Below, piece by piece: positions 5,751-56,816 of a stretch of 64,000 nucleotides of DNA (its first letter is position 1; each line of letters opens with the position of its first letter). Both the position numbers and the translations under genes were made by a program. The stretch is from Methanoregula boonei 6A8 (lineage in GTDB: Archaea > Halobacteriota > Methanomicrobia > Methanomicrobiales > Methanospirillaceae), in assembly GCF_000017625.1 (NCBI RefSeq), contig NC_009712.1, forward strand, positions 1,922,001 through 1,986,000, read 5' to 3'. A model generated the notes under the pieces. The model made no database searches, had not been told where the DNA came from, and saw nothing but the letters and a program-made list of their open reading frames with translations.

Positions 5751-6731
5751 TCATCTACCCGGGACACGATACAAGGCCCGCTTTTTCTGCTTTTTTTGCT
5801 CCTCTCGATCACTTTCTGTTAAATTAACGGTTCTCCATTTCAAGTTTGAGTATATCCATCGAGGTTGATACCCAACCTCTTTTACGAGACGAGGATGTGA
5901 TAAAAACGAAGGTGCCAACAGCCGGGGTTTACCCACGCCTTCTTCAATCGATTTCTCCTTTTTCAAATCAATAATATAGTAATCAATATCGTTCACAAAA
6001 ATTTCATTCTCAAACGAATCTTTACAATACAATGAAAATTTTACACAAATATAAGGCAATTCATTTTTCAAATAGATTTTTGCAATCTGTTCTAAAGTAT
6101 ATCTCCTAGGTTTGTAATTTTGAAGGAGATCTGCTCTTTTATGTTCCAAAAATTCATATTTCAGGTTATTATTGAAATCATCATCAAGCATATAGACTGG
6201 CTCAATTTCAAAGGGCATCCAGTTTTCAGATGGTAATAAGTAGGAATCGCCAGTTGGCCGCTTTAAAAAAGTAATTCCTTCAATAGGTTTGTATTTAGAA
6301 GTTTTTTCCCCATCAAGCACTCTCTCTGGATCATAATAAGTGACATCTACAGTTTGGTCGAGTCTTTTCCTAAATATATCTTTAACAAGGCGTTCAGTTA
6401 CATACGGCCAGCCAAAATCATGGAGCCATTTCATATGTTTAATGTCATCCGTCTTATCGACAGAGAAACAGTACGTAGACACTCCCAATTCAAAAGCAGG
6501 AGTATTCCCAACATTTTTCAAGCTAATTTTTAATTTATTTTTATCAACTGAACAATTACCAATTTCTAAAATAGGTCGATTCTGAGAAAGAAGAAATGAG
6601 GTCTGTTCTTGGAAGGATTTCAATTGAGATTGAGTAATTTTGATATTTCTATAAGCATAAATCGCAAGCAGAATTGTTCCTAACGCCACGAAAACATTAA
6701 CAACCACAGATATGTCATCAACCAATGGCAT
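5751..6731 (-). CDS. Orphan membrane-anchored protein in AT-rich island
   Basis: 326 aa from MPLVDDISVVVNVF; a longer in-frame start at 6791 is possible. One N-terminal transmembrane segment (VVVNVFVALGTILLAIYAY, about residues 9-27) precedes a short coiled stretch (SQLKSFQEQTSFLLSQNRP) and a soluble domain rich in Lys, Asn, Tyr and Glu. That layout resembles host-range or defence-type membrane proteins of unknown function found near integration sites, but I recognise no named family. Codon use is strikingly AT-rich compared with every neighbour, which points to recent transfer. Confidence 0.7.
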   Translation of the reverse strand: MPLVDDISVVVNVFVALGTILLAIYAYRNIKITQSQLKSFQEQTSFLLSQNRPILEIGNCSVDKNKLKISLKNVGNTPAFELGVSTYCFSVDKTDDIKHMKWLHDFGWPYVTERLVKDIFRKRLDQTVDVTYYDPERVLDGEKTSKYKPIEGITFLKRPTGDSYLLPSENWMPFEIEPVYMLDDDFNNNLKYEFLEHKRADLLQNYKPRRYTLEQIAKIYLKNELPYICVKFSLYCKDSFENEIFVNDIDYYIIDLKKEKSIEEGVGKPRLLAPSFLSHPRLVKEVGYQPRWIYSNLKWRTVNLTESDREEQKKQKKRALYRVPGR

Positions 6732-7095
6732 ATGGAAATAAATGCATCGAGCATTATAAAAACGCGATCCTCGTTTATGGATTCTCAACAATCATTACAA
6801 TTCAATACTACACTGTAAGAAGAAGTAAATTTAGATTTACTACTCATTCAACAAAATCTGTCTCATTTTTTTCTGTTGAATAAAATCTGCCCAATATAGA
6901 AGGAGTTCAGCAAACGAGACAATATATTTCCCTCGAACTTGCTTTGCTAATGGTCGCTCGGGCGCCTCTTCGGGCAAGAGCCTTGACGAATAATTCCGGA
7001 TCCCGGTAAGTGCGTAGCGCAAAACCCGACGAGGCGTTTTGCGCGTCAGGCATCGTTACGATATCCCCCGGTAAGAATGACCGTCCCCGGGGCGC
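6732..7095. other. Intergenic stretch, right half of the AT-rich island
   Basis: The left part is AT-rich like the adjacent orphan gene and probably holds its promoter. Base composition returns to GC-rich by about 6955. A 60-codon open frame on the minus strand (6840-7022) has no recognisable content and no convincing ribosome site. I see no tRNA fragment that would mark an attachment site. Confidence 0.4.
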
Positions 7096-7371
7096 TTAAA
7101 AATCACGGTATGCACTCTTCCGATATTCCACCTCAAGGACATGAATAATTAAAACATCATCATGGATCGACAAAAATGCCCGTAGACCCCTCCGGATCCT
7201 GACGGAATAGACGGGATGCAGGGGATGGGAGCCCTTGATCTTTTTGATATGGTGATAGGGTTCTTGGCTGATCGCATGGATCTTCCGGATAACCTGCCGG
7301 GCAAGTTCGGGAGGAAGCCGGCCGAGATCGCGGTCGGCCCGGTGCGTATACCGGACCGCGTAACCGCTCAT
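7096..7371 (-). CDS. RelE/ParE-superfamily toxin
   Basis: 91 aa, typical for this toxin family. It opens YAVRYTHRADRDLGRLP, then PELARQVIRKI, and ends with the beta-strand run VYSVRIRRGLRAFLSIHDDVLIIHVLEVEYRKSAYRDF, matching the RelE pattern of basic residues preceding a conserved Arg and C-terminal Tyr/Arg. RelE members cleave ribosome-bound mRNA and ParE members poison gyrase; the sequence alone does not separate them. It overlaps the antitoxin by an ATGA junction, so the two are translationally coupled. Confidence 0.88.
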   Translation of the reverse strand: MSGYAVRYTHRADRDLGRLPPELARQVIRKIHAISQEPYHHIKKIKGSHPLHPVYSVRIRRGLRAFLSIHDDVLIIHVLEVEYRKSAYRDF

Positions 7372-7604
7372 TTAACCCCGTATTTTTTCATGACCTCTTT
7401 CTCGGCAATCAGGTTGCCTTTCCTGACATCCCCAAGGGATTCTTCGAGTCCTGCTATGGTCTCTTCGCTTAAGGGTTCCTCATCCACCGCGAGCGTGACC
7501 AAGCGCTCGATGACATCGTTGTATGATTCCTTGGGGTGACGTTTCAGGGAGTTGAGTTGATCCTTGAGATCTTCCCGGATGTAAATGGTGGTCGCGGCCT
7601 GCAT
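7368..7604 (-). CDS. Antitoxin partner (ribbon-helix-helix type)
   Basis: 78 aa. The N-terminal strand-helix TTIYIREDLKDQLNSLKRH followed by YNDVIERLVTL fits a ribbon-helix-helix DNA-binding dimer (CopG/VapB-like). The acidic C-terminus (EEPLSEETIAGLEESLGD) would wrap the toxin. The start is the ATG at 7604; a further in-frame codon at 7622 adds only MHSSIT. Antitoxin-first order and a 4-nt overlap with the toxin support an autoregulated pair. It lies between the AT-rich island and the repeat element. Confidence 0.82.
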   Translation of the reverse strand: MQAATTIYIREDLKDQLNSLKRHPKESYNDVIERLVTLAVDEEPLSEETIAGLEESLGDVRKGNLIAEKEVMKKYGVK

Positions 7605-8101
7605 GGTAATACTACTATGCACCTATAGGTGTTATAAGTGCCTGTAGGGGAGATAAACGGTCTGGATGGACCAAAGAGTTCCGAAAAAGTCCGCCCCACC
7701 CATCATCACGATCAGGGACCCCCCCCTTTTAAAAAAATCAGACACCCCCCTACCCCCCACATGGGGGTCTGCACAAAAAGAAGCCGGACCCTCTTGACCC
7801 AACGTAAAGGGGGACCCCCTTTGCATATTCCAGTTTCCCGACCTGCATTTCCACTGGATGCTCCGGTGAGAGGGGATTGGGGGTCCCCTTTTACTCAATG
7901 ATCAGGGGGTCCTCCTTGATCTGATCATAAAGGGGAGTCCCTTCGCGAAATTCGCAAATCAAAGGTACCCCCCTACCCCCCACGGGGGGGCCGCACGAAA
8001 AGAAGCCGACCCCCCATTGACTCAAAAAAAGGGGGCCCTACCCCCCGCTCATGATGGGGAGGGCCGGGTTGCCGGACAAAAAAAGATGGTGCGGCCCCGG
8101 G
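7605..8101. other. Intergenic region dominated by repeat element A
   Basis: 497 nt without a convincing gene. It contains very long C and G runs and two copies of an approximately 80-nt unit (7743-7823 and 7967-8047), described separately. No start codon with ribosome site leads into a sensible protein on either strand. The minus-strand promoter of the toxin-antitoxin pair must lie near 7610-7640. Confidence 0.6.
7716..8047. repeat. C/G-rich composite repeat element, cluster A
   Basis: Two degenerate copies of a unit start at 7743 and 7967 (spacing 224). The unit runs ACCCCCCTACCCCCCAC, then GG/TCTGCAC or CCGCACG, then AAAAGAAGCCGACC, TTGAC-CAA, a G run and CCCC. A leader GACCCCCCC-TTTT-AAAAAAA precedes copy 1, and a spacer box TTTCCACTGGATGCTCCGG lies at 7848. 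The same order of leader, unit, spacer box and unit recurs at about 29.33-29.66 kb, so this is a dispersed intergenic element rather than chance low complexity. Function unknown. Confidence 0.65.
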
Positions 8102-44399: not shown

Positions 44400-45449
44400 T
44401 CAGATGAAGAACCGGAAGGTGACCCACGCGACAATCAGCATGATCGCGGAGTATTTGAGCCCGGCAATGACCCGGCCTTCGCCCATCTGCCCGGCGCAGA
44501 GGCCAGAGAAAAAGCCTTGGATCATAGCCGCATGGGAGAACAGGCGCTTATAGGCCGGGAGATCAATTCGTCCCATGAATTTGCTGCTTGCCGCGGTTAC
44601 TTGGGCGGCCGTCCCTGCGGTTGCCATGGTGCTCAGGAAAGAGCTTACGAGCACCGCGATAACAAACAGGAATACGGTAAATGAGACAATCACGATGATC
44701 ACGTAAATCAGCATGTTGTTCCGGCGTTCCTGGGCAAGATTGACCACCTCAAAGGTATCGTTTGCCGCCGCACGGAGCACTTCGCTGATGTCCCCGCCGG
44801 CCTTGCTTGCCTTGGCAATCAGGTCAACACTCCGGTCGGCAAGCGGGGTCCCCAGGCTTTTCCCAAACCGGTACAGGGCTTCGACAAAACCGACTCCCCA
44901 TGACATCTCGTTATCGAGTTTTCTGATATGGGGGGACAGGGTACCGTATTCCGCCCCTGCCACCAGGTGGACCGCGTTTGGCAGGGTCATACCGGAATCA
45001 TTCATGCCGGCAAGATCACGGAAGAAGTTGGGGAGTGCGGTCTCCAGGTTCCGCATCCGTGATTGTTCCCGGAAATCGAGGACTGCCACCGGGATGATGG
45101 AAATGAGCACCGCCGCAACGGCAAAATCATCAATCACGGTTGAGTTGAAGAGCACGGAGATGCCGTACATCTTCACCATCGAGATAAATCCACCAACAAA
45201 AACGATAAGTGACAGGGGGACGCAGACAATAAGGATATTCTCGGGCTTTTCCACGAGCACCTTGAGCGGGTGCTTAAGAAAACGCCCGATCCCTTCCCGG
45301 CTCTTGCGTTCCGTATCCAGCCTGCCGGAAATATCGCTCAGTTCCTTTTCCACGGAATCCATCTCGCTTTTGGAAAGCGGTGGCGGGGCTTGGGAGAGAG
45401 GATCTTTTTCTTTTCCAAGAATGCCCTTTAATCTATCGTTGAATGCCAT
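44400..45449 (-). CDS. TadC/FlaJ-like membrane component of type IV pilus-type machine
   Basis: 349 aa. Three or four transmembrane helices (about 70-95, 110-130, 260-285, 330-349) flanking a T2SSF-type cytoplasmic domain (LPNFFRDLAGMNDSGMTLPNAVHLV ... DNEMSWGVGFVEALYRFGKSLGTPLADRSVDLI). In archaeal pili and archaella this subunit is the platform that the ATPase acts on. Preceded 3' to 5' by a second, split FlaJ-like gene and the ATPase, so two platform proteins are encoded, as in Tad systems. Confidence 0.88.
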   Translation of the reverse strand: MAFNDRLKGILGKEKDPLSQAPPPLSKSEMDSVEKELSDISGRLDTERKSREGIGRFLKHPLKVLVEKPENILIVCVPLSLIVFVGGFISMVKMYGISVLFNSTVIDDFAVAAVLISIIPVAVLDFREQSRMRNLETALPNFFRDLAGMNDSGMTLPNAVHLVAGAEYGTLSPHIRKLDNEMSWGVGFVEALYRFGKSLGTPLADRSVDLIAKASKAGGDISEVLRAAANDTFEVVNLAQERRNNMLIYVIIVIVSFTVFLFVIAVLVSSFLSTMATAGTAAQVTAASSKFMGRIDLPAYKRLFSHAAMIQGFFSGLCAGQMGEGRVIAGLKYSAIMLIVAWVTFRFFI

Positions 45450-45451
45450 AA

Positions 45452-46375
45452 TTAGGACTCCGGGGTCATGGAACTGATCATGATGATAAACATCATCGTA
45501 CCGAAGGGAATCATGAGGTAGATAACGACATAGAGAAATATCGGTTTTGAATCCCCACCCAGCACCGACATGATGGACTGGAGGATGATCAAAAAGAGCG
45601 TACCTGCCACCATCGCCGTCACGTAGGACTCCGAAATCAGGGCAAGCGTATCCAGGAAGAGTTTCTGGGTCTGGCGGTTCTCCAGGGCATACTGAGCAGC
45701 TTTTGTCCGGAAATACTCGGTGAGATTTCCCCCGCTCGATATGCTTGCCATTGCACCCTGCAGGAATTCCTTCATCCGCAGGGAAGGTGTACTCGAGGAA
45801 ACGATCCGGAGGGCATCGATAAGGTCTCGCCCGAAGATATCGAGCTCCCGGGCTATGTAACGGGCCTCCACGGAACTTTCACCATATATCGGGCTGTCCC
45901 CGAGCAGGCGGAAGATCTCTGCCGGTGTGATACCGGCCGTGGACATAGAGGTGATGTAGTTGATCGCGTAGGGCAGGGTCGCGTCAATATTCCGGCGTCG
46001 GTTCCCGGCGACAACAGAAGGATATGCAATAAAAATTGCATACGTGATCCCCCCAAAAACCAGAAGCGAGAAGACCACCACAAAGATAGTCCCGAGAAGG
46101 ACGCCGTACTGGTTGAGGAAAAGCATCGTTGCCGGGACTTCACCTTTGTAGTGTATCAGGTTGGGGAGTTTTAAGGCCTATGTGATAAGACCCAGGAAGA
46201 CCGCCGAAATCAGACCAACAAGGATGGAACTGACAACCGCAGTGGAGATATATACCTCAAACGGGGTCTTGAGCCGGGCCGAGATGATATCGTTCCGGAG
46301 CTGGGCGTACTGCTCCCGTTTTGACTTCATCCTCATACCCAGAAGGTTGAAGCAGAACCGCTCGAAACTATTCAT
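45452..46375 (-). CDS. Second TadC/FlaJ-like membrane component, interrupted by an in-frame TAG
   Basis: Reading from ATG 46375: MNSFERFCFNLLGMRMKSKR... VGLISAVFLGLIT, then TAG (46178-46180), then in the same frame 17 sense codons and MLFLNQYGVLLGTIFVVVFSLLVFG, continuing through the T2SSF core (ATLPYAINYITSMSTAGITPAEIFRLLGDS) and two C-terminal helices to a normal stop. The combined frame is 306 residues plus the amber, the standard size. The N-part (65 aa) and C-part (224 aa) would be useless alone unless the amber is suppressed, read through, or translation restarts at ATG 46126. Overlaps the ATPase end by 8 nt. Confidence 0.75.
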
Positions 46376-48806
46376 ATAGATCCTTCCTTACGCGCTCTAC
46401 AACCACTTCGGGCTCACGGAAGTACGAGATAAGGATCTTTGCTACATCCTTGTAGTGCCGGATCTTCTTGATACGCATCCACTCCAGCACCTCCTGCCTG
46501 CGTTTGAGTTCTTCCCGCATACGGTTCTCGTTCCAGCCCCGCGCCTCCATGATGTCCTCAAGGATGTAAGATTTCCCCGAGTAGGTGATCTCATCGGTTG
46601 CCGATCGCCAGCGGAAGACCTCGTTTGTGATCAGTTCGTTTGTCCGCGGATCGATATCGAGGATCTCAACAATCTGCTTGTTCCGGCGGATCCGTTTCCC
46701 GCCCATCCGGGCCTGTACCTGGACACAGATGAAATCGAGCGCGGAGAGCATATTCCGTGGTACGTCCATGGGCGGGTTCTCGATACGGTGCACGACGCTC
46801 GCAACAGAGTCGGCGTGAGTTGTGGAGTAGGTAACGTGGCCCGTGCTCATTGCCTGGAAAAGTGTCTGGCATTCCTTACCTCTAACCTCACCGACGATGA
46901 TGTACTCGGGCCGCTGACGCATAGCCGCACGGAGCAACTCATACATGTTGATCTCTCCTCTGCCGGCGGTGTCAAATGAGTCACGCGTGACACTCGGGAT
47001 CCAGTTCGGGTGAGGAAGCTTGACTTCACGGGTATCCTCCAGAGAGACAATCTTTGCCATCGGGGGAATGAAAAGCGAGATTGCATTGAGGGCAGTAGTC
47101 TTCCCGGACGCGGTCCCACCGGCAAAGATAGCGGACTTGCCATTCTCGACGCAGAGCCATATGTAAGCGATCGAGAGCGGGGCAAAGGTGTGCCATTCAA
47201 TGAGATCGGTAGGGGTAATTGGCTCGTCCTTGAACTTACGGATAGTGAATGTCGAGCCGTGCGCAGTGACCTCCTGCCCCAGTGTCATCTGGATACGGGA
47301 TCCATCCTGCATGGTCGCATCGAGAATGGGCTCGGCAATGGAGATGTACTTGCCTGCCCTTTGTGCGAGCTTGGTGACAAAGGAGTCGAGCTCCTCGGCA
47401 TTGTGGTACATCAGGGTGGTCTTCATTGACTCGTAATTGGCATGGAAGGCAAAGAGAGGGGTGTTGACCCCGTCGCAGGAGATATCCTCGATATACTTGT
47501 CATGCATGATCGCATCGATCATGCCATCACCCAGAAAGTCCTTGTGCATGTTATAGAGGATCTTCTCACGTTCCACCGGGTTGAGCTTGATTCCGTAATC
47601 CGCCAGAATCTCATCAACCGAACGACGGAGCTGGCTGCGGGCCTCCTCTTTGGAAATGTCCTTGGTGTTGATGTCAAGGATCTCAAAAAGGCGTTCCTTT
47701 AACTCCTTTAACAGGTCTTTCTCTGGCTCCGAGAGTACAGGTTCGAGAACCTGGTAGGTATATTCATGGGTGGAATGGTCATAGATGACCCGGACATATG
47801 CATAGGGATCGTTGACGGGGTACGTATCCATCACTTCGATACCGGGTTTTGGCTCAAAGGTGAGATCGACGAGAGGTCCATGGATCTTGGGATCGTATTC
47901 CACGTTCTCCGACCGGATCGCGCTGAAGAGTGCACTAAACCAGGATTTCTTTTCTGTCCCCTTATCCGTCCCCTTGTCTGCAAGGGTCAGTTCTGATTCA
48001 AGGTCCTTGAAACCGGATGTGGAAAACTCCCTTTTCCAGATCTCGGCAAGTTCCGGGGGAAGGCTACCGGTTCCGGTGGACTCAAACGCCTGCATCCGGC
48101 CATGAAGATTGATCTCATCAACATGGAATGTCGCACCTTTGGGGAGAATAAGACCGGAAAATTCGGATATCTGGTCAGCGGAAATAATCCGCTCATCAGA
48201 TTCGGTCACCGCGGATTTCCCGATCTGATCTGTCGGGGCTCCCACTTTTTCGGCCTTCTTTTTCTTGAAAAACCGGGACGTGCGATTCTCGCGGGGATCT
48301 TCCTCTTCAGTAATTTCGACAACTTGTTCCGGGGGTAACTCTGATTCCGGGGAGGCTGTAAGAGGCTCCGGGGAGTGCGCCGACGGGGGGACCATCTCCG
48401 GTTGTCCCATGATCTTGCCCAGTGCCGCGCGAACATCGTCCCCGCTTAGTACCGGGGGTTCTACACCTTCTTGCGCCGGGGGGACATCTTCGAGAAGCTC
48501 ATCGAAAGTATCCAGCTCTTCAGGTTTACCGGTTGCTTCTTTCGGGAATTGTACGGGCTCATCCGGGGTGGGGAGGGATTCCGGAACTACCTCTTGAGGA
48601 GGGGTACCGGCATTCATGCCAAGCTTTTTTATCAGTGCCGAGAAATCACCCGGGCTTCCATCTCCAGCACTTCCGTCCTCTCCCTGCGTCGCCGGAGGAG
48701 GCGCGGCTACCGGCGCCTCAGGTGTACTGCCCGGTGCCTGGATACCCCGTATCTTTTTGAGAAGATTGCTTACACTGTCCTGATCCTCGTCATCCTTTGG
48801 TTTCAA
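46368..48806 (-). CDS. Type II/IV secretion system ATPase (GspE/TadA/FlaI-like)
   Basis: 812 aa. Residues 1-230 are an acidic, Pro-rich, probably disordered extension. The catalytic domain has Walker A GGTASGKTTAL near 560, the Asp box VSLEDTREVKLP, Walker B IIVGEVRG near 635, and the His box GHVTYSTTHADSV. It powers pilus assembly with the two downstream platform proteins. The start codon is TTG (48806); the ATG upstream opens only an 8-codon frame (MKTGGHPA) that ends over the TTG, a possible leader peptide. Confidence 0.93.
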   Translation of the reverse strand: MKPKDDEDQDSVSNLLKKIRGIQAPGSTPEAPVAAPPPATQGEDGSAGDGSPGDFSALIKKLGMNAGTPPQEVVPESLPTPDEPVQFPKEATGKPEELDTFDELLEDVPPAQEGVEPPVLSGDDVRAALGKIMGQPEMVPPSAHSPEPLTASPESELPPEQVVEITEEEDPRENRTSRFFKKKKAEKVGAPTDQIGKSAVTESDERIISADQISEFSGLILPKGATFHVDEINLHGRMQAFESTGTGSLPPELAEIWKREFSTSGFKDLESELTLADKGTDKGTEKKSWFSALFSAIRSENVEYDPKIHGPLVDLTFEPKPGIEVMDTYPVNDPYAYVRVIYDHSTHEYTYQVLEPVLSEPEKDLLKELKERLFEILDINTKDISKEEARSQLRRSVDEILADYGIKLNPVEREKILYNMHKDFLGDGMIDAIMHDKYIEDISCDGVNTPLFAFHANYESMKTTLMYHNAEELDSFVTKLAQRAGKYISIAEPILDATMQDGSRIQMTLGQEVTAHGSTFTIRKFKDEPITPTDLIEWHTFAPLSIAYIWLCVENGKSAIFAGGTASGKTTALNAISLFIPPMAKIVSLEDTREVKLPHPNWIPSVTRDSFDTAGRGEINMYELLRAAMRQRPEYIIVGEVRGKECQTLFQAMSTGHVTYSTTHADSVASVVHRIENPPMDVPRNMLSALDFICVQVQARMGGKRIRRNKQIVEILDIDPRTNELITNEVFRWRSATDEITYSGKSYILEDIMEARGWNENRMREELKRRQEVLEWMRIKKIRHYKDVAKILISYFREPEVVVERVRKDLYE

Positions 48807-48947
48807 GCCGGATGTCCCCCTGTTTTCATCTCCACGTTCCTTAAAATTTTATAAAAGATCTTTCTTATCCCGGACTATATGTACTCTCTTACCCCAATCA
48901 GGAAAAACCTTCCCCCTCGCCGGGCATACGGCAAAACCAGCTGCTTG

Positions 48948-49685
48948 TCAGGAATGTCCAGCCTCGTGCTGGAGACTCCTGATAAGTACCCGGAGGAGAC
49001 CGAGTTGGGCATCAGATCGGGCAATGATACAAAGGCAAAGATCCCCGAATGGTGAGATGATGAACTTGTTCTCTGCGGTTTCAAGAATCAGCTGATCAGG
49101 CCGGCCAAGACTCATATCAAGGGCAATAGTGGTTCCCGTCCGGAGGAGGTCCTCTGCCCGTGCGGCAACGTGCTCGAAATCCGCATTGCCTCGGGAAATT
49201 ACCGGGAATCCCTCATAGAAGGCGGAAACGGCTACAACGCCCGGTTGTGCCATAATCTTTGTGAGGGTTGCCTCATCCAAATTACCTGAAGGCTGACGGG
49301 GTACTTGTGTGCTCTCGTAAAGAGGGGGAGGAGATTTCTGCACTACCGGGGCTGATCCGATAAAGAGCTGGCGTTCTGTACACCGATCTAGTGCTTCTGC
49401 AAAATCCTTATCCGAATAAGGTCTCAGGGCAAACTGCTGTTGGTTCGGGTCGCTCCCTCCCGCAGGTGTTGCCATGATGTACCTGAGTGCGGCATCTCCC
49501 CGATACATCTGCTCCTTATCCTCAAAACAGGCTGCCACCAGTTCGCCGTTACGCATCAGGATGAACCCCTTTCCGCGGTCGGTTTCCACCTCAATTAACC
49601 CTTTAAAGCCCCTAAGGTTCTCAAGAGTGTCACCCTTCCGGGGATCGAGAGCGATACCCCCTTGTGTTCCTGCCGGCATTTTCAT
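48948..49685 (-). CDS. Sensor-like protein: small N-terminal domain plus roadblock/LC7 domain
   Basis: 245 aa. N-part (about 20-75: LENLRGFKGLIEVETDRGKGFILMRNGELVAACFEDKEQMYRGDAAL) resembles DUF4388/DUF2226-like modules and recurs in two neighbours. A Pro-rich linker (about 120-145) leads to a roadblock/LC7-type C-domain (ATLTKIMAQPGVVAVSAFYEGFPVISRGNADFEHVAARAEDLLRTG). The latter often binds small GTPases or ParA-type ATPases. It lies upstream of the pilus genes on the same strand. Confidence 0.75.
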   Translation of the reverse strand: MKMPAGTQGGIALDPRKGDTLENLRGFKGLIEVETDRGKGFILMRNGELVAACFEDKEQMYRGDAALRYIMATPAGGSDPNQQQFALRPYSDKDFAEALDRCTERQLFIGSAPVVQKSPPPLYESTQVPRQPSGNLDEATLTKIMAQPGVVAVSAFYEGFPVISRGNADFEHVAARAEDLLRTGTTIALDMSLGRPDQLILETAENKFIISPFGDLCLCIIARSDAQLGLLRVLIRSLQHEAGHS

Positions 49686-49710
49686 AAAAAAAAGCCCAAT
49701 AAAGAGTGGT

Positions 49711-50058
49711 CTAAAGGGCCGCAACAATGCGTTCCTTGTTCTTCTTTAATTCATAACGGATTCTACCGATATTTGCAGTTGTATCTGCGACAAGTGCTAT
49801 CAGTTCATCTGCGGATAAAGGTGCAAGAATAATAGGCCCTTTTTCCAATTCGACCAGCATCTGGGAAAGCTCGCCTTTCCCGAGGGTATTACCCATTGCT
49901 TCTGATGTCCCAAGGCCGGTCGATGCCATAGCTCCCAGCGCCTCGATATCTACCTTACCGGATACGGCGCTTTCTATTACAAATCCGTCCCTCCCCACCA
50001 CAACTGCCGCCGATACGCCTTCAACTCTCAGAAATTCATCTAATAACGGCTTGAGCAT
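49711..50058 (-). CDS. Roadblock/LC7 domain protein
   Basis: 115 aa, single domain: LLDEFLRVEGVSAAVVVGRDGFVIESAVSGKVDIEALGAMASTGLG... SQMLVELEKGPIILAPLSADELIALVADTTANIGRIRYEL. This is the MglB/roadblock fold, usually a dimer that acts as GTPase activator or positioning factor. A GGTGAGAT ribosome site is just before the ATG. Next to a second roadblock-containing gene. Confidence 0.92.
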   Translation of the reverse strand: MLKPLLDEFLRVEGVSAAVVVGRDGFVIESAVSGKVDIEALGAMASTGLGTSEAMGNTLGKGELSQMLVELEKGPIILAPLSADELIALVADTTANIGRIRYELKKNKERIVAAL

Positions 50059-50323
50059 TATCTCACCATTTAATAATTGTGACTTTCTTGTTTTTTTCCT
50101 ATTAAAATGTTGGGATCATTTTCCATAAGAATGCCACAAAATAGCCTTTAAAAACCAAAAAAAACCCTCATTTGTGGCGCAAAAATCGGAAAAATGACCT
50201 ACCTCAAGGTAAGGTGAGAAAACAAATACAGGTGGCTCCGTTTGGCATTGTCTGAAACCGGGGATACCTGACCGGATTGTGCAAAAAGAAACTATATACT
50301 GGAATGCAATCATTAGAGAGATC
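50059..50323. promoter_or_regulatory. Divergent promoter region in the pilus/sensor cluster
   Basis: 265 nt between the roadblock gene (minus) and the next sensor gene (plus). A TATA-like CTATATACTGG at about 50291-50301 fits near-leaderless transcription from ATG 50324. AT-rich tracts near 50060-50110 serve the minus strand. This is the control centre from which the two halves of the cluster diverge. Confidence 0.45.
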
Positions 50324-51055
50324 ATGCAATTACCCCGGGGGACATTCCGCGAGATCCAGAAGAGCCGGAAAGCCCGTGAGATCCTCACGGAGCTGGAGCG
50401 GAGCCGGTTTAGCGGGATCTGCAGTATTTCCTGCCCCGATGGTATCTGTACGCTTGTTTTCCATACGGGAAAATCCATTCTTGCAGAATACAACACGGCA
50501 AAGGGCGATGCTGCGCTCGAAAGCCTCTTTGCTTCCTTTGAGGAGGAGGCTGTGGACGCTGCGCTCTCCACGCTTGATGAGGCCCAGATCCGGTTATCTC
50601 TTGAATTTAACAAACGCGAACAAGTCGTTTCCCCTAATCCTTCCCGAAAACAGGAAAAACCGGTGCACCCGGATATCCTCCCTGCCCACCCTGCACCGAG
50701 AGTTCTCGCAAAGAAAACCAGCCCCGCACCAACAGCAGGCAATCCCCCCCCCGGCAGCGAAGTCACAAGGCTGATAACACACCCCGTGGAGAAAACACCC
50801 CGACCACCATTAGCAGGCCCTAGAAATCCTATCGTAGGGCCACCACCATTGATCCGGGCAGAAAAAATACATGTACAAAAAGAAGAGCTGACGGAGCCGG
50901 TACCTCCCTCAAAAGAGAGCGGGAAAACCTCACTTGAGAGCGATCTGGACACGCTGGATTCCATGAATCTCGACCAGGTCAAAAGTAAGATCCGGGATGA
51001 ATGCAAGACCATGGTCAAGCATCTCAAGCTGGATCATCTCATGGACAAGGATTAA
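50324..51055 (+). CDS. Sensor-like protein with small N-terminal domain and Pro-rich linker
   Basis: 243 aa. N-domain (about 1-85): LPRGTFREIQKSRKAREILTELERSRFSGICSISCPDGICTLVFHTGKSILAEYNTAKGDAALESL, resembling that of two neighbours. The middle (about 105-195) is Pro-rich and low complexity. The C-terminal helix is Lys/Asp-rich (LDQVKSKIRDECKTMVKHLKLDHLMDKD). No membrane segment. The TATA box and the downstream neighbour on the same strand indicate an operon. Function inferred as a signalling partner. Confidence 0.7.
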   Translation: MQLPRGTFREIQKSRKAREILTELERSRFSGICSISCPDGICTLVFHTGKSILAEYNTAKGDAALESLFASFEEEAVDAALSTLDEAQIRLSLEFNKREQVVSPNPSRKQEKPVHPDILPAHPAPRVLAKKTSPAPTAGNPPPGSEVTRLITHPVEKTPRPPLAGPRNPIVGPPPLIRAEKIHVQKEELTEPVPPSKESGKTSLESDLDTLDSMNLDQVKSKIRDECKTMVKHLKLDHLMDKD

Positions 51056-51081
51056 CTACCCCTTACGTGGTGATACCAACG

Positions 51082-51645
51082 ATGCCTGACCTGCCCTCTC
51101 TGAGAATTATTCTTTTGCTTGCCGGGGGATTGCTCATCCTCTGCATTGCAGCGTGGTTCCTCGCAGGGAAACGTCGGCGCGGAGTAAAGAGATTGGCCTC
51201 TGCCATCAGTTTGGACCCCAACCGGTCACCGCTCCGGGTGCAGAAAGTCCCGTTCCGGAGTACTGAAGATCCTGCCAATCCCGACAAGATCACAGATGCC
51301 ACGTCCCACAAGGAAGAGACAGACTGCGTCAACAAACAGAGGGATCTTGCCGGGAGCCTGGATGCCCTTGCAAAGAAATATTCCCTGGACGAAATTATCC
51401 TTGCCACGGCGGACGGCCTTTTGCTTGCCTCGTCCCGGAACGCTCCACCGGCAGGAGATATTGCACGATACACAGGAATGTTTGCTGAAAACATCCAGCC
51501 CCGGCCACCTGGGATCATCCTCTTTGGTCTGGAGTACAAGGGTTCGCATCTTGTAGGAATCGCCAGGGGAAGAGATCTGCTGATCCAGGAGCCCGATCCG
51601 GATATGGTACGCGAGACAAAAGCTATTTTAAACAGGTGGATATAA
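51082..51645 (+). CDS. Membrane-anchored roadblock-like protein
   Basis: 187 aa. One N-terminal transmembrane helix (LRIILLLAGGLLILCIAAWFLAG, about 7-29), a basic patch KRRRGVKRL, a disordered segment, then a roadblock/LC7-like domain (LDALAKKYSLDEIILATADGLLLASS ... YTGMFAENIQPRPPGIILFGLEYKGSHLVGIARG). An earlier in-frame start overlaps the previous gene and lacks a signal. It could tether the signalling module to the membrane. Confidence 0.75.
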   Translation: MPDLPSLRIILLLAGGLLILCIAAWFLAGKRRRGVKRLASAISLDPNRSPLRVQKVPFRSTEDPANPDKITDATSHKEETDCVNKQRDLAGSLDALAKKYSLDEIILATADGLLLASSRNAPPAGDIARYTGMFAENIQPRPPGIILFGLEYKGSHLVGIARGRDLLIQEPDPDMVRETKAILNRWI

Positions 51646-51725
51646 CACGAATATGAAACACATAAATAAAATATTCCACAATACGTATATTTACACAGGA
51701 TAATATTCAGGACGACAGGTGTTTG

Positions 51726-52526
51726 ATGGTCAAGGTATATACGATTGCATCCGGAAAAGGGGGTACAGGAAAAACCACCGTTTCTGTTAACCTCGGAACA
51801 ATGCTTGCCAAGATGGGTAAAGAGACCTATCTGATGGACGCCGATATCGGGATGGCAAACGTCGGACTAATCCTGGGATTGCAGGATGCACCGGTCACCC
51901 TTCATGAAATTCTTGCCGGAAAAAACAATATCGATGAGGGTATCTACACGGGCCCGGCCGGGCTCAAGGTTATCCCAAGCGGCATCTCGCTCCAGGGCTT
52001 CCAGCAGGCAGACCCGGACAAAATCCGCGACGTTATGTCGGAAATCGTAAAACGGTGCGAATTCCTCCTGATCGATGCACCTGCCGGCATCAGTAAGGAT
52101 GGGGTCGTCCCGCTCGCGGTTGCCGATGAGGTCATCCTCGTGGTCAACCCCGAACTCTCGTCCATTGTCGATGCACTCAAGACCAAGATCCTGACAGAAG
52201 TGGTCGGCGGCCATGTGCTTGGCTCCATTATCAACCGGGTGGACCAGGACAAAAGCGATGTCATCTCACGGAAGATGGAAAAAGTCCTCGGGGTAAAAGT
52301 CCTCGGAATCATACCTGAAGATTCTAATGTCAGGAGAGCAGCAGCAGCCCGCTCTCCAATAGTAGTCTCCTACCCGGACTCACCTGCATCAAAGGCAATC
52401 CACCGGATAGCCGCAGACCTTATCGGGGTGTCATACAAGGACGAGACCCCGGCGGTGGCCAAGCGCGAAGGATTCATTGACCGTTTCTCAAAGGCACTCT
52501 TCAAGAAGAAATCGGATAAGAAATAA
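51726..52526 (+). CDS. minD: MinD/ParA-family ATPase
   Basis: 266 aa. Deviant Walker A KGGTGKTTVSVNLGTML (about 11-27), DADIGMANVGLILGLQ (switch I), the switch II motif LIDAPAGISKDGVVPL, and KMEKVLGVKVLGIIPEDSNVRRAAAARSPIV. A C-terminal amphipathic helix (RFSKALFKKKS) can bind membrane. Start ATG at 51726, just after an AGGTG; TATA-like ATAAATAAAATA upstream. Probable positioning factor for the pilus or sensors. Confidence 0.9.
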   Translation: MVKVYTIASGKGGTGKTTVSVNLGTMLAKMGKETYLMDADIGMANVGLILGLQDAPVTLHEILAGKNNIDEGIYTGPAGLKVIPSGISLQGFQQADPDKIRDVMSEIVKRCEFLLIDAPAGISKDGVVPLAVADEVILVVNPELSSIVDALKTKILTEVVGGHVLGSIINRVDQDKSDVISRKMEKVLGVKVLGIIPEDSNVRRAAAARSPIVVSYPDSPASKAIHRIAADLIGVSYKDETPAVAKREGFIDRFSKALFKKKSDKK

Positions 52527-52538
52527 GGATTTTTTGCG

Positions 52539-52546
52539 TTTTTTTT
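52539..52546. terminator. Poly-T terminator between convergent genes
   Basis: A run of eight T follows the minD stop after a shorter T6 at 52530. It ends plus-strand transcription before the convergent response-regulator gene. Confidence 0.5.
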
Positions 52547-52576
52547 AGGAACTTGCCGGAACTGGGGAGGTCAGAT

Positions 52577-53368
52577 TCAAACCTTCTCTGCCATCTTGAT
52601 CTCAGTTAATGTTTTCTCCCGGATCTGGATGGAAACGCCAATCATCTCGTTCTTGTCATCCTTGACCGGTCTGGCCGTGAGCGCAACAAACCGTTTCTTG
52701 TTAGCAAGAGAGACAAGAACGGTATTAAGCTCATAGCTGACTACTATCTTGTCCCGGATGACGTCAAGTGCCGGATCATTAATCCTCTCACCGGTGAGTT
52801 TGTTGACCAGAATCAGGACCTTCCTGAGCGGTTGCGCCAGTGCATCCTTCTCCAGAATATCCAGCAAGCGGCAGGAATATGGGTTCAAAAAGATGATCCG
52901 GCCCCGGGTGTCAGTGATGATCACCGATTCAAGTGCAGCCATGATCTTTTTCATATCCCACAGTGCTGCTTTGTCGAAATAGCGCTTGCGGATGGTATGG
53001 TTGTACAGGGCGATCTCAATATTGGATACGATTTCGTTTGACGTAAAAGGCTTGAGGAGGAACCCGTACGGCTCTGCGGCCTTAGCCCGGGTAAGGATCG
53101 CGTCATCGCACTGGCCAGTGAGAAAAATTACTGGGATGCGGAAAATAGAATAGATATACTGAGCAGCCGTAATACCATCCAGTGCACCGGCGAGGCTGAT
53201 GTCCATGAGAACTAAGTCAGGCTGATATTCGGCCGCCTTCATGATAGCGTCTTCGCCGGTCATCACCTTGCCGGCAACAGCATATCCTTTCTTTTCGAGA
53301 ATAACGCTTATAAGGTTGGAGATAATCTCGTCATCTTCCACGATCAGGATCTGGACGGGCGAGGCCAT
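52577..53368 (-). CDS. Response regulator with REC and PAS domains
   Basis: 263 aa. REC domain (1-120): ILIVEDDEIISNLISVILEKKG, phosphoacceptor in LVLMDISLAG (Asp about 53), and LLKPFTSNEIVSNIEIAL. PAS domain (about 140-260): LESVIITDTRGRIIFLNPYSCRLLDI, with C-terminal SANKKRFVALTARPVKDDKNEMIGVSIQI. No DNA-binding or enzyme output, so it likely signals by protein contact. Start ATG 53368; GTG at 53377 is in frame. Cognate kinase not in view. Confidence 0.92.
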   Translation of the reverse strand: MASPVQILIVEDDEIISNLISVILEKKGYAVAGKVMTGEDAIMKAAEYQPDLVLMDISLAGALDGITAAQYIYSIFRIPVIFLTGQCDDAILTRAKAAEPYGFLLKPFTSNEIVSNIEIALYNHTIRKRYFDKAALWDMKKIMAALESVIITDTRGRIIFLNPYSCRLLDILEKDALAQPLRKVLILVNKLTGERINDPALDVIRDKIVVSYELNTVLVSLANKKRFVALTARPVKDDKNEMIGVSIQIREKTLTEIKMAEKV

Positions 53369-53588
53369 GGCATTCACAGGATGGGATTGTTCTGGTTAAG
53401 AATATGGAACAGGAGTATTTAAATGTAGATTTTATTTTTTATAAAAAAGCAGAACACATCCCGATCTCCTCACAGAGAGTACATCAAAAACTATCCCCTT
53501 CCCGGCATACAACATCCTGTATCCAAGAGTTAAAAAAAGGAAAACTGGTGTGGGGGTGAAAATCCATGCCTTTACGTTCCGGCAAAGA

Positions 53589-54698
53589 TCATTCTGCCTT
53601 ATTGGTTACGGTGAAGACACAGAATTCGTCACCTTTTGACCGGCACTTGATCTCCCGGCACTGAACTTTGACGCCAAACGATCCTTCAATGATCCCGGCG
53701 AGAAGGCCAGCGGTACAATAGCATACATGCTTACCGGTTGAACCAAACGCTTCTGACTCAACGGTGTGTTCGAGCGTAATAATCTTTTCCTTCTTTGCTT
53801 CGTTCCACTCGCTCTTGACAAGCTTAAACCAGCCCATCTGGGAGTAGAACGTAAATGCCATATCGGAGAGTGTCGTTGGTTCCGTGATGCCCATCTTCTT
53901 ATAGTGTTCGACGTTTTCCTTACCCATGTCCATATAGGCACGGTAGTTTACTCCACCTGCCGGAAGCTCCCCCATCGTCTTTTTGAGTGAATTCATCATG
54001 GACGTGAAGACAAAACGTGGCATCAGAACCACCGGGTCATCGATCAGCTGGATGATCCCTTCCACCGGGCGGTGATCGATGAACTCAGTAATAGCAGAAT
54101 CTCCCTTTACCACGGCCTGGGCCTTGAACTTCCAGCTCGGTTCAACCTGATCGGCAACAAACTCGCAGCAGTCATCCCCGTTTGCCACGCACTTGCGTTC
54201 GAGGCAATACCAGGTTTTACCGGTAACCGCAGTCAGTACACCTTCGATCCATCCCATGTGGACACCACAGACCGGCATTTTCCAGTCTTTTAAGATCTCC
54301 GATTCGAAGGTGTGTTTTGTGCGAAGGACGATCCGCTTTTCGCTCTGCTCCACAACCTCAAAAGGAGCTCCCCAGCCCTGCTGGTGCTGGAGCTTGAAGA
54401 CCAGAAGGAGAAATTCGGCCGGAGTAAGTTCCATGCCCATTTTTTTGAGGAGATTCTGCAGGCCCACAGCACCCTGACCGACAGAGCGGAACAGTTTACG
54501 CACCGCTTTTACGGCCAGTTTCCGGTTCAGGTGCCCCTCGTACATCTCGTAGATAGCTTTAATCAGATAATTGGGGTTGCTCGCAGTCTTCACCCCAAAA
54601 ACCGAATAGGTGCCGGCCACGGGATCCAGCTCGATATATGAGGTGATGTCCTTCTCACCCTTGATCAGCGCCTCGAAGTCTTCACGTCCGATCTTCAT
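53589..54698 (-). CDS. Tandem V4R-domain protein
   Basis: 369 aa. Two V4R/4VR-like domains, each ending in a Cys cluster (TGKTWYCLERKCVANGDDCCEF at about 155-176; VQCREIKCRSKGDEFCVF near 350). V4R domains bind small ligands or a metal/haem in signalling and aromatic catabolism proteins. Preceded by an N-terminal segment (about 1-60) of unclear type. Probably a small-molecule or metal sensor feeding the neighbouring REC-PAS/pilus module. Confidence 0.85.
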   Translation of the reverse strand: MKIGREDFEALIKGEKDITSYIELDPVAGTYSVFGVKTASNPNYLIKAIYEMYEGHLNRKLAVKAVRKLFRSVGQGAVGLQNLLKKMGMELTPAEFLLLVFKLQHQQGWGAPFEVVEQSEKRIVLRTKHTFESEILKDWKMPVCGVHMGWIEGVLTAVTGKTWYCLERKCVANGDDCCEFVADQVEPSWKFKAQAVVKGDSAITEFIDHRPVEGIIQLIDDPVVLMPRFVFTSMMNSLKKTMGELPAGGVNYRAYMDMGKENVEHYKKMGITEPTTLSDMAFTFYSQMGWFKLVKSEWNEAKKEKIITLEHTVESEAFGSTGKHVCYCTAGLLAGIIEGSFGVKVQCREIKCRSKGDEFCVFTVTNKAE

Positions 54699-54810
54699 AA
54701 GCAATCAGTCTGCGATTATATAATTAAAGGGTTTCGCCTCGATTCTCGGCGTATATTCCCAAGGAAAAACAACTGTTGGTTCACCCATCCCCTGATGCCC
54801 AACGGGATAA

Positions 54811-55422
54811 TCAGAGATCCAGAATATGGGAAGGGTGCGCTTCATCAAAATTAATAGTAAAACGGGTCACAACCTGGGACCGGTCCTGGACAATACAGGT
54901 GTAGGTGCCGTACATCACCCGAAAACTGACCGTTCCGTTACCGGTCGTGACATCGCTTCCCACAATCTTACCATCTTTCCGGATCGATACCCGTACGCCG
55001 TTCTGCGGCATTTTTTCCCGACGGACCGTGAGCGTGACAACCCCGAGGCCCTCACTCTTCTTGCCGATCTCCGGTACCGAATACGTGATATTCTTTCGGA
55101 TGTGCCCCTTCTCAAAGATCCGGCACCCCATGACAAGCGCATCGATAATCTCCGGTTTGACATCGCAGAGAACATACTGCCGGCCCTCCCGGATATAGAC
55201 AACTGCTTTGTCGCCATAGAGCGCTCCCTCGGAGTCGATATAGATTGCCCCTTCCGGTTCCCCGTTGAGAAAAGCAAGATAGAACTGCTTGTTTCCTTCC
55301 TTTGCTACAGCAAGGGCATGCAGGCGACGGGATGCAGCGAACGCAAGCATATCGGTGAGGGAAAAAGTACCCAGGTATTTCGCACCCTTCAGAATATTCT
55401 CCAGCAGCTCCTGCAGATCCAT
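54811..55422 (-). CDS. Sensor-like protein with small N-terminal domain
   Basis: 203 aa. N-domain (about 1-85): LQELLENILKGAKYLGTFSLTDMLAFAASRRLHALAVAKEGNKQFYLAFLNGEPEGAIYIDSEGALYGDKAVVYI, third member of the same domain type in this cluster. C-part (about 120-203) is a beta-sandwich-like region (GLGVVTLTVRREKMPQNGVRVSIRKDGKIVG ... YTCIVQDRSQVVTRF), resembling PEGA/carboxypeptidase regulatory-like folds. Divergent from the prepilin peptidase. Confidence 0.7.
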   Translation of the reverse strand: MDLQELLENILKGAKYLGTFSLTDMLAFAASRRLHALAVAKEGNKQFYLAFLNGEPEGAIYIDSEGALYGDKAVVYIREGRQYVLCDVKPEIIDALVMGCRIFEKGHIRKNITYSVPEIGKKSEGLGVVTLTVRREKMPQNGVRVSIRKDGKIVGSDVTTGNGTVSFRVMYGTYTCIVQDRSQVVTRFTINFDEAHPSHILDL

Positions 55423-55634
55423 GAATTATTCTCCGCGTATTCAATCCGGGGCAGAAATAAAGATAATCTCTCCCGGCCAAGTGCCAATTGCTTTTAATCA
55501 TATATTCACAACAGGCGTATTATATATTTGCAAAAAAGCTCACTGTCGGACAAAACCGGATATCTCCGATGAAGGAAACAGGCACGGGAATCGTCATGCA
55601 TAAGTGGTTGGAGATATAACCGGTATTTCTGCAT

Positions 55635-56816
55635 ATGACATATTCCCCGCTTATAATATCGACGGTTGCCGTTTTCATTACGCTTCTCTATGCCTCGTAC
55701 CTGGATGTCAAAGAGCGGCGTGTCCCGTTCAGGACATGGTACCCCATGCTTGTTGTCGGAATGATTGCTACCATCGTACTCTTCTACCAGAATACCGAAA
55801 ACATCAGCCTGATTTGCGGTTACCTGGCACTGGTGGCCAGCTTCCTGTACGCGGACTATCTCGACAACCATGAGCCCGGGACACCGTTCCGGCTGCAGTA
55901 TCTTGCCATTGTGCTTGCGCTCCCTATTCTATCCTGGTTCCTTCTTCCTATCCTCACTACAGGACATATGCCTGAAACGCAGCTGATTCCGTGGTATATC
56001 ATGTTTGCCGGTCTGCTCGGGTACGTCTCGTACCGCGAATACAAACGGGAACCTGAACGCCGGCTCACGGCAAAACAAGCACGAAAGGAGGCGCAGCGGG
56101 AATCGAACGTAGAGGAAGTACTGACACGCTGGTATTTCGTGCTGGTCGTTGTCATCCTGGCCATAGCATCATTCTATATGATTGGGAGCGGAAACTGGGG
56201 AATTCCGGGCATTTACATTGCACTTGCAGCAGTTTTCTGTGGAGTGTTCTATATCTTCGGACAGATGCGCCTCTTTGGCGGTGCCGATGCCTGGGCGCTC
56301 ATCTTTATCGCCTTCTGCATCCCTACGTTCCCCATAACGCCGCTCTTCAAGGCCTCCCCCATAGGGTTTCTCGCGTTTTCGGTGCTGATCAATGCGCTGA
56401 TCCTCAACCTTGTAGCTCCACTGGGGATCTTCATCATCAACGTAGTCAAAAAGAACCGTGCCCCGCTCCAGTACATGTTTTTTGGCTTCCCTGTAAAAGG
56501 AGAAAAGATCCAAGAGGCCTGGGGCTTTGTGATGGAGGACTTCACTGAGAAGGAGGGGAAGATAGAACGAAAATTCATTGGGTTCTGGGACTCCCTGCGC
56601 CGGATGCGTTCCGATGAGGGACGAGTGTATACCAAGGATCTCCGTGAACACCCTGAAGAATTCGAAAAAGAGCTCGGAACATACAAGAAAGCAGGGAATG
56701 TTTGGATCTCGTATGCCGTCCCGTTTATCCTTCCCATTACCGCGGGACTGATCACCGCCATTCTCTTTGGGGATATCCTATTTACTATAATGAGCTTTGT
56801 AACCGGTGGTGCATAA
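55635..56816 (+). CDS. Prepilin/preflagellin peptidase (A24 family)
   Basis: 393 aa with about eight membrane helices. The two catalytic aspartates are visible in [10 protein letters not shown] (near residue 19) and [10 protein letters not shown] (near residue 216), equivalent to the GxGD aspartyl-protease pair. It removes class III signal peptides from archaellins and type IV pilins. The C-terminal part (about 300-393) is longer than in typical FlaK. It sits close to the ATPase and platform genes, completing the assembly core. Confidence 0.92.

Follow-up and report, generated by a model that had tools for sequence, protein, structure and literature searches.

At positions 44400-56816 of the 64,000-nucleotide stretch of Methanoregula boonei 6A8 DNA analysed here (the window, from a complete genome of 2,542,943 bp), a type IV pilus assembly core is joined by a cassette of regulatory genes. 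The core, TadC1-TadC2-ATPase-hyp203-peptidase (two platform proteins, the assembly ATPase, the protein hyp203 and a prepilin peptidase), is present throughout Methanomicrobiales. The cassette, Rob-RobB-D4388-MinD with TMx added in part of the lineages, is a conserved movable unit separate from the core; it combines the roadblock protein Rob, RobB with its predicted roadblock domain, the DUF4388-like protein D4388 and a MinD-type ATPase. We tentatively read the locus as a pilus core whose joined MinD/roadblock cassette may act on the ATPase via DUF4388-like adaptors, with exchangeable redox inputs, a reading that we consider quite possible rather than probable.

Genes were called from open reading frames (ORFs) with Pfam at its curated cut-offs, and NCBIfam, hhalign, AlphaFold, Foldseek and Protein Data Bank (PDB) profile searches were added. 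Profiles of the window proteins were run against 40 loci surrounding the nearest relatives of the ATPase in the order. TadC1, TadC2 and the peptidase were each found in 38 of them and hyp203 in 37, two of the 40 being second ATPase copies without TadC genes; Rob, RobB, D4388 and MinD occur in about 17 only. An ATPase match at E<=1e-60 is present in 145 of the 150 genomes of the order, paralogues counted in, and Rob is single-copy in 96 of the 150. Of the 91 genomes in which both genes could be placed, 51 have Rob no more than 12 kb from the ATPase. The families of Methanomicrobiales are labelled here f1 (that of the window) to f6 and on, f4 being Methanofollis-type and f5 Methanoculleus-type, and f14 lies outside the order. 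By family, this linkage was observed in 22/23 genomes of f1, 12/21 of f2, 6/6 of f3, 11/12 of f4 and 0/29 of f5; the few unlinked cases in f1 and f4 have the two genes on different contigs. The clustering exceeds chance expectation: stretches within 12 kb of a T2SSE gene make up 6.6% of the genome or less, and 51 genomes show the arrangement. A first-pass annotation of this DNA had made linkage in related genomes the touchstone for a single system: it holds, in varied orders, for Rob, RobB, D4388 and MinD in f1, f3 and f4; in part of f2 it holds for Rob and RobB, and in f5 and f14 it is absent.

The order of the genes differs between families. In f1 each of the 22 assessable genomes has the whole cassette adjoining the pilus ATPase, with Rob and RobB beside the ATPase and MinD, TMx and D4388 divergent. 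In f4 the genes form a colinear and nearly gapless run, 188aa-FrhG-FrhA-Rob-RobB-D4388-MinD-hyp203-ATPase-TadC2 and on to TadC1, which takes in a 188-aa protein and the two subunits of a second [NiFe] hydrogenase (FrhA2/FrhG2); f3 is organized likewise. Along this run in the f4 locus L050, neighbours overlap or are separated by gaps of 0-123 bp: hyp203 and the ATPase overlap by 8 bp, Rob and RobB by 14 bp, and the gap from FrhA to Rob is 3 bp. In part of f2, Rob and RobB have FrhA2 on one side and hyp203-ATPase on the other, and MinD lies away from them. Both f5 and another part of f2 carry a separate cluster, D4388-TMx-MinD-188aa-FrhG2-FrhA2-Rob-RobB, and f14 has 188aa-FrhG2-FrhA2-Rob-RobB-D4388-x-MinD with no linkage to the ATPase. 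The cassette sits with the hydrogenase, the pilus core or both according to lineage, and is thus a unit of its own that was joined to them at different times or in different lineages. The f14 cassette also encodes an extra 295-aa protein between D4388 and MinD, and its D4388 is longer, with 393 aa (L109:6505-7392 and L109:7403-8584). Four f2 loci (L098, L199, L200 and L202) have a second, divergent Rob-RobB pair across the hydrogenase cluster, adjoining the peptidase.

Natural deletions separate Rob, RobB and the DUF4388 domain, as one half of the cassette, from MinD and the helix as the other, and tie this second half to the ATPase. In G137 and G121, sister genomes of the window's genus, Rob, RobB, TMx, the V4R protein and the DUF4388 domain of D4388 are all gone; MinD is still beside the ATPase, as is the C-terminal helix of D4388. 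In a third genome, G149, Rob and RobB are missing and full-length D4388 and MinD are kept, MinD again beside the ATPase.

The first-pass annotation had overlooked hyp203 and D4388. In a separate sample, hyp203 accompanies the ATPase orthologue in 49 of 49 genomes, 48 times within about 10 kb and once split over contigs; among the genomes listed for the order six lack hyp203, and in none of these does an ATPase match reach orthologue strength. This gene is an obligate neighbour of the ATPase, inseparable from it. The C-domain of its AlphaFold model (pLDDT 87.3) matches transthyretin/CnaB-like structures. The N-domains of hyp203, RobB and D4388 are mutually related as judged by profile comparison with hhalign (94.8% for RobB-D4388, 92% for hyp203-D4388 and 85.1% for RobB-hyp203), and the AlphaFold models of hyp203 and RobB present the same order of secondary structures in this domain. 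Searches for its fold returned structures matching the C-domains (roadblock; transthyretin-like) instead. PF14332 (DUF4388) is detected in 11 of 16 D4388 family members, always weakly (best 7.6e-4); in the whole genome there are just two DUF4388 matches, both weak and both in the locus. D4388 ends in a conserved helix, IRxDCxxLLKxLxLEHL in the family alignment, and probably starts at the methionine of MQLPRG at 50324.

Rob scores 61.7 bits with Robl_LC7 (cut-off 23), has a mean column identity of 85% across 17 loci and matches an Asgard roadblock, MglC and MglB among PDB profiles. The C-terminus of RobB from the window stays just below the same cut-off, at 22.4 bits; Robl_LC7 is found in 16 of 16 members of its family (best 2.7e-8), and Foldseek matched its AlphaFold model (pLDDT 84.9) to MglB, LAMTOR2 and Asgard roadblocks. 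These predictions identify the C-terminal domain of RobB as a roadblock. Two further roadblock-like proteins had been announced, at 48948-49727 and 51001-51645; RobB is the first, and the second, TMx, was not confirmed as one (Robl_LC7 in 2/9 members with a best E of 0.11; 1.5% in the profile comparison with Rob). In the whole genome there are three roadblock matches, two of them in the locus. At 18 kb past the window's end, a further roadblock gene precedes the genes of two response-regulator proteins (L217:2257-4067; G000:C1:2002256-2004066).

MinD belongs to the archaeal MinD family (TIGR01969, 315.5 bits for a cut-off of 201.75). Its family alignment shows an invariant deviant Walker A motif, GKGGTGKT (GKGGTGKTT in the window), and a conserved C-terminal segment, GFIDRFxxxLF, a possible membrane-targeting helix judging from its sequence. 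The REC-PAS gene is mainly limited to the window's own genus and the V4R protein to f1. In the latter, PF02830 matches two stretches (84.4 bits, cut-off 31), and the family alignment shows invariant cysteines. The MsvR model of NCBIfam matches the V4R part at 4.7e-20; this protein was nevertheless rejected as an MsvR transcription factor, with 72.3 bits for an equivalog cut-off of 220 and no helix-turn-helix match. V4R and REC-PAS are additions of the window's family and stand outside the conserved switch, of which they had been taken to be parts.

The pilus core itself is well supported by profile matches. The ATPase has a T2SSE score of 105 bits (cut-off 24.9), the platforms T2SSF scores of 62.9 and 54.8 bits (cut-off 25.2), and the peptidase 90 bits with PF06847 and 35.4 bits with PF01478 (cut-offs 29.9 and 26.5). 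The PilB3-type domains of the ATPase remain below their cut-offs of 27 bits (PilB3_C 23.7, PilB3_N 16.4). As the first-pass annotation had noted, the locus has no pilin gene: Pilin_N has no match in the window and 13 matches above cut-off elsewhere in the genome, and the pilins of the machine would come from there. The same genome carries the pilus ATPase a second time, as a solitary copy with 77% identity (L058, G000:C1:1551552-1571049; 5998-8067), surrounded by PAS/REC signalling genes with no TadC found alongside; genome G011 has a similar second copy (locus L075). A 673-aa frame just past the window's end also matches T2SSE. Within the window's genus, locus L097 (genome G109) is decaying, its ATPase being broken into two frames and TadC2 and hyp203 not found.

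Twelve genes lie between SUI1 (43860) and hisI (56806). TadC1 to Rob are on the minus strand, D4388 to MinD diverge from them on the plus strand, and beyond MinD the genes from REC-PAS to hyp203 are again on the minus strand, followed by the peptidase on the plus strand. The ATPase, both platforms, the peptidase, a roadblock protein, MinD, REC-PAS and the tandem V4R protein were all found where the first-pass annotation had placed them. In many loci a PIN-domain/ATPase/KH-type protein follows hisI (L050:16074-18023 and L007).

Genes of the locus, with positions in the window
Gene and description	Position	Strand	Evidence
TadC1, T2SSF/TadC-type platform, pilus core	44400..45449	-	Pfam T2SSF 3.8e-17; 38/40 ATPase loci
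TadC2, second T2SSF platform, pilus core	45452..46126	-	Pfam T2SSF 1.2e-14; 38/40 loci
Pilus assembly ATPase, GspE/PilB3-like, long variable N-terminal extension	46368..48806	-	T2SSE 3.4e-30; weak PilB3_C 5.5e-5
RobB, DUF4388-like N-domain and predicted C-terminal roadblock domain	48948..49727	-	Robl_LC7 family matches, AlphaFold/Foldseek, hhalign
Rob, stand-alone roadblock/LC7, 115 aa, very conserved	49711..50058	-	Robl_LC7 5.5e-17
D4388, DUF4388-like N-domain, variable linker, conserved C-terminal helix	50279..51055	+	Weak PF14332; family alignment
TMx, one N-terminal transmembrane segment and small cytoplasmic domain, start uncertain	51001..51645	+	Family alignment
MinD/FleN-type ATPase	51723..52526	+	TIGR01969 (minD_arch) 2e-94; family alignment
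REC-PAS regulator	52577..53377	-	Response_reg 2.3e-21, PAS_9 3.6e-7
Tandem V4R protein without DNA-binding domain	53589..54704	-	V4R 5.9e-24, 2 stretches
hyp203, DUF4388-like N-domain and transthyretin/CnaB-like C-domain	54811..55422	-	hhalign, AlphaFold, ATPase co-occurrence
Prepilin peptidase, A24 with archaeal C-terminus type II	55635..56816	+	Arc_PepC_II 1.5e-25, Peptidase_A24 1.6e-8

The hydrogenase FrhA2/FrhG2 is linked to the cassette in f2-f5 and f14. Its subunits are nearest to VhuA/MvhA and VhuG/MvhG (1.8e-119 and 1.3e-73 with NCBIfam; PDB 5odc also), with scores of 399 and 247.8 bits for equivalog cut-offs of 800 and 450, and every copy of the large subunit has the [NiFe] ligand motifs RICGICPxxH and DPC(I/V/L)SCATH. 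Like the F420-non-reducing MvhAG/VhuAG hydrogenase (PDB 5odc), their best match, they share the [NiFe] and cluster cysteine motifs; unlike it, they have no MvhD or Hdr alongside, cluster with roadblock and MinD genes and form one clade of their own, beside the Hdr-linked Mvh of f14. In f14 the cassette hydrogenase was rejected as the usual partner of Hdr, a separate MvhGA adjoining HdrABC there. No second Mvh was found in the f2-f5 genomes tested, so that an Hdr-partner role is possible for the hydrogenase in these families; many Methanomicrobiales are without MvhAG (Kaster 2011, PMC3087415). Ordinary FrhA is also present in each genome tested, and in f1 (8 genomes tested) only the ordinary Frh is left: the window's family lost FrhA2/G2, and the cassette stayed with the pilus genes. 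The 188-aa protein was considered and rejected as a V4R protein; Pfam gives only a weak ATC_hydrolase match (19/25 members, best 1.1e-4) and no V4R, and the comparison with the tandem V4R protein gives 4.9%. The f9 loci L115 and L125 contain a more distant hydrogenase pair, genes like that of the 188-aa protein and, nearby, a divergent roadblock gene; the large-subunit match in f9 spans a TGA stop near the C-terminus, possibly a split subunit as in VhuA/VhuU.

According to the mechanism that we propose, hyp203 would dock onto the ATPase by its DUF4388-like domain, by analogy with the interaction of cyanobacterial PATAN proteins with PilB1. RobB and D4388, which also carry this domain, would bridge the ATPase/hyp203 site to a Rob/RobB roadblock dimer, and the conserved C-terminal helix of D4388 would connect the site to MinD. 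MinD would cycle on the membrane and set the site, or the occurrence, of pilus assembly by the ATPase. The input would depend on lineage, with the Mvh-type hydrogenase and the 188-aa protein in f2-f5 and tandem V4R and REC-PAS in f1. The company of the cassette and the hydrogenase in related loci suggests, short of proof, that the site or timing of pilus building may depend on hydrogen or redox state. The idea that the second hydrogenase may sense H2 comes from its gene neighbours, and the full chain, an H2/redox-responsive switch running from this hydrogenase (V4R and REC-PAS in f1) through roadblock, DUF4388 and MinD to the site or assembly of pili, is in our view rather unlikely.

Action of the cassette on the pilus ATPase is favoured by its being kept beside this ATPase through differing gene orders and after the loss of the hydrogenase in f1, by the constant company of hyp203 and the ATPase, by the natural deletions and by the kinship of the three DUF4388-like domains. 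Several points weigh against it. None of the 29 f5 genomes has the cassette linked to the ATPase, nor does f14, and f6 has the pilus core but no cassette. PF14332 scores are 16.3 and 15.9 bits for a cut-off of 25, so that the domain is named 'DUF4388-like' only, and the equivalence of DUF4388 and PATAN is presumed. A single insertion and subsequent inertia may account for the linkage, as SUI1, hisI and cobQ, neighbours with no relation to it, are conserved as well. The pilus switch of the first-pass annotation is partly supported, by the recurrent linkage to the ATPase; that it is a dedicated one is not supported, as in f5 and f14 the cassette stands with the second [NiFe] hydrogenase.

The cassette might instead mainly serve the Mvh-type hydrogenase at the membrane, as its scaffold or by placing or regulating it, its place in the pilus locus being an accident of one ancestral insertion and its use in f1 another one. 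We hold this to be unlikely, though it is the strongest of the alternatives. Linkage to FrhA2/G2, seen in f2-f5 and f14, extends further than that to the pilus and is probably the older of the two; the cassette hydrogenase is a clade next to the HdrABC-linked Mvh, which in f14 is a separate gene, and only 3 bp separate FrhA from Rob in L050. However, f1 is without FrhA2/G2 and keeps the whole cassette by the ATPase in each of its 22 assessable genomes, and MinD is still beside the ATPase in G137, G121 and G149 despite the loss of Rob. A somewhat less likely explanation is that cassette, hydrogenase and core are functionally unrelated units in a slowly rearranging region. The core is flanked by SUI1 in 30 of 40 loci and by hisI in 37 of 40, genes with no plausible link to it, and the tree of ATPase and TadC permits a single gain of the linkage with later separations. 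Mere neighbourhood accounts poorly for genes that stay together despite rearrangement (f1 as against f3/f4 orders) and for the f4 overlaps and 3-bp gap across the borders of hydrogenase, cassette and pilus genes; MinD and roadblock proteins also recur near archaeal type IV pili of other taxa (PMC4858521).

It is more doubtful still that Rob and RobB form a polarity switch of MglA/MglB type, regulating a small GTPase encoded elsewhere that in turn activates the pilus ATPase, while MinD serves as a landmark. The RobB model resembles MglB, in Myxococcus the control of type IV pili by roadblock proteins goes through MglA (PMC9481161), and the genome does encode a stand-alone small GTPase of 168 aa (G000:C1:438567-439073; L216:4568-5074; TIGR00231 3.8e-14, above cut-off). 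Yet this GTPase is unlinked to the locus and far from MglA, its PDB match to which (E 2.9e-4) is no better than that to Ras, and GTP_EFTU is its top Pfam match. No small GTPase was found among the ORFs and Pfam matches of the locus, in line with the absence of MglA stated in the first-pass annotation.

From the DUF4388-like proteins of the locus, the PATAN regulators of cyanobacterial phototaxis differ in their fused REC; the domain is probably of the same family, and the link of the DUF4388-like proteins to the ATPase is one of gene neighbourhood. These regulators, PixG and others, are tied to the PilB ATPase, and PATAN proteins interact with PilB1 (PMC12288463). In Myxococcus xanthus MglA/MglB/RomY, one or more roadblock proteins likewise stand near or act on type IV pilus control, and the MglB roadblock controls pilus polarity (PMC9481161); here MinD and the DUF4388-like adaptors are found in place of MglA. 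In Haloferax volcanii, MinD2/MinD4 are MinD-family ATPases that position surface machines, namely archaella and chemosensory arrays, and the accessible portion of that paper (PMC11588486) describes no roadblock partner. Spatial roles for MinD and roadblock proteins in other systems, invoked by the first-pass annotation, are thus borne out by MinD2/MinD4 and MglB. Also close are the PilB3-type pili of archaea, those of euryarchaeal clade 2 in Makarova 2016 (PMC4858521), which share the ATPase, two TadC proteins, the peptidase, pilins encoded elsewhere and an association with MinD and roadblock genes (FleN/MinD, arCOG00589; roadblock, arCOG02603, in or associated with the pilus loci). Compared with what the accessible part of that paper describes, the locus has one conserved MinD/roadblock/DUF4388-like cassette, joined to a hydrogenase in relatives, and the obligate hyp203. 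The link of MinD and roadblock proteins to archaeal pili, first taken as undescribed, is thus already in that paper; the run of hydrogenase, cassette and pilus genes was not found described. The open-access literature, supplements aside, gave no account of this run, of the cassette as a unit or of hyp203 as an obligate partner, and a search combining roadblock, hydrogenase and methanogen, with supplementary tables outside its scope, returned nothing relevant.

How archaea decide on the place and time of pilus assembly is little known, according to Makarova 2016 (PMC4858521). The cassette names genes for this step and offers natural variants for comparison: linked or unlinked, with the hydrogenase present or lost, and with the roadblock genes lost. 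For methanogen physiology, it poses the question of what the second Mvh-type hydrogenase of many Methanomicrobiales does, since this enzyme clusters with regulatory genes and not with heterodisulfide reductase. If true, the H2/redox switch would provide archaea with their first hydrogenase of sensory type, and control of pili by MinD and roadblock proteins would likewise be a first.

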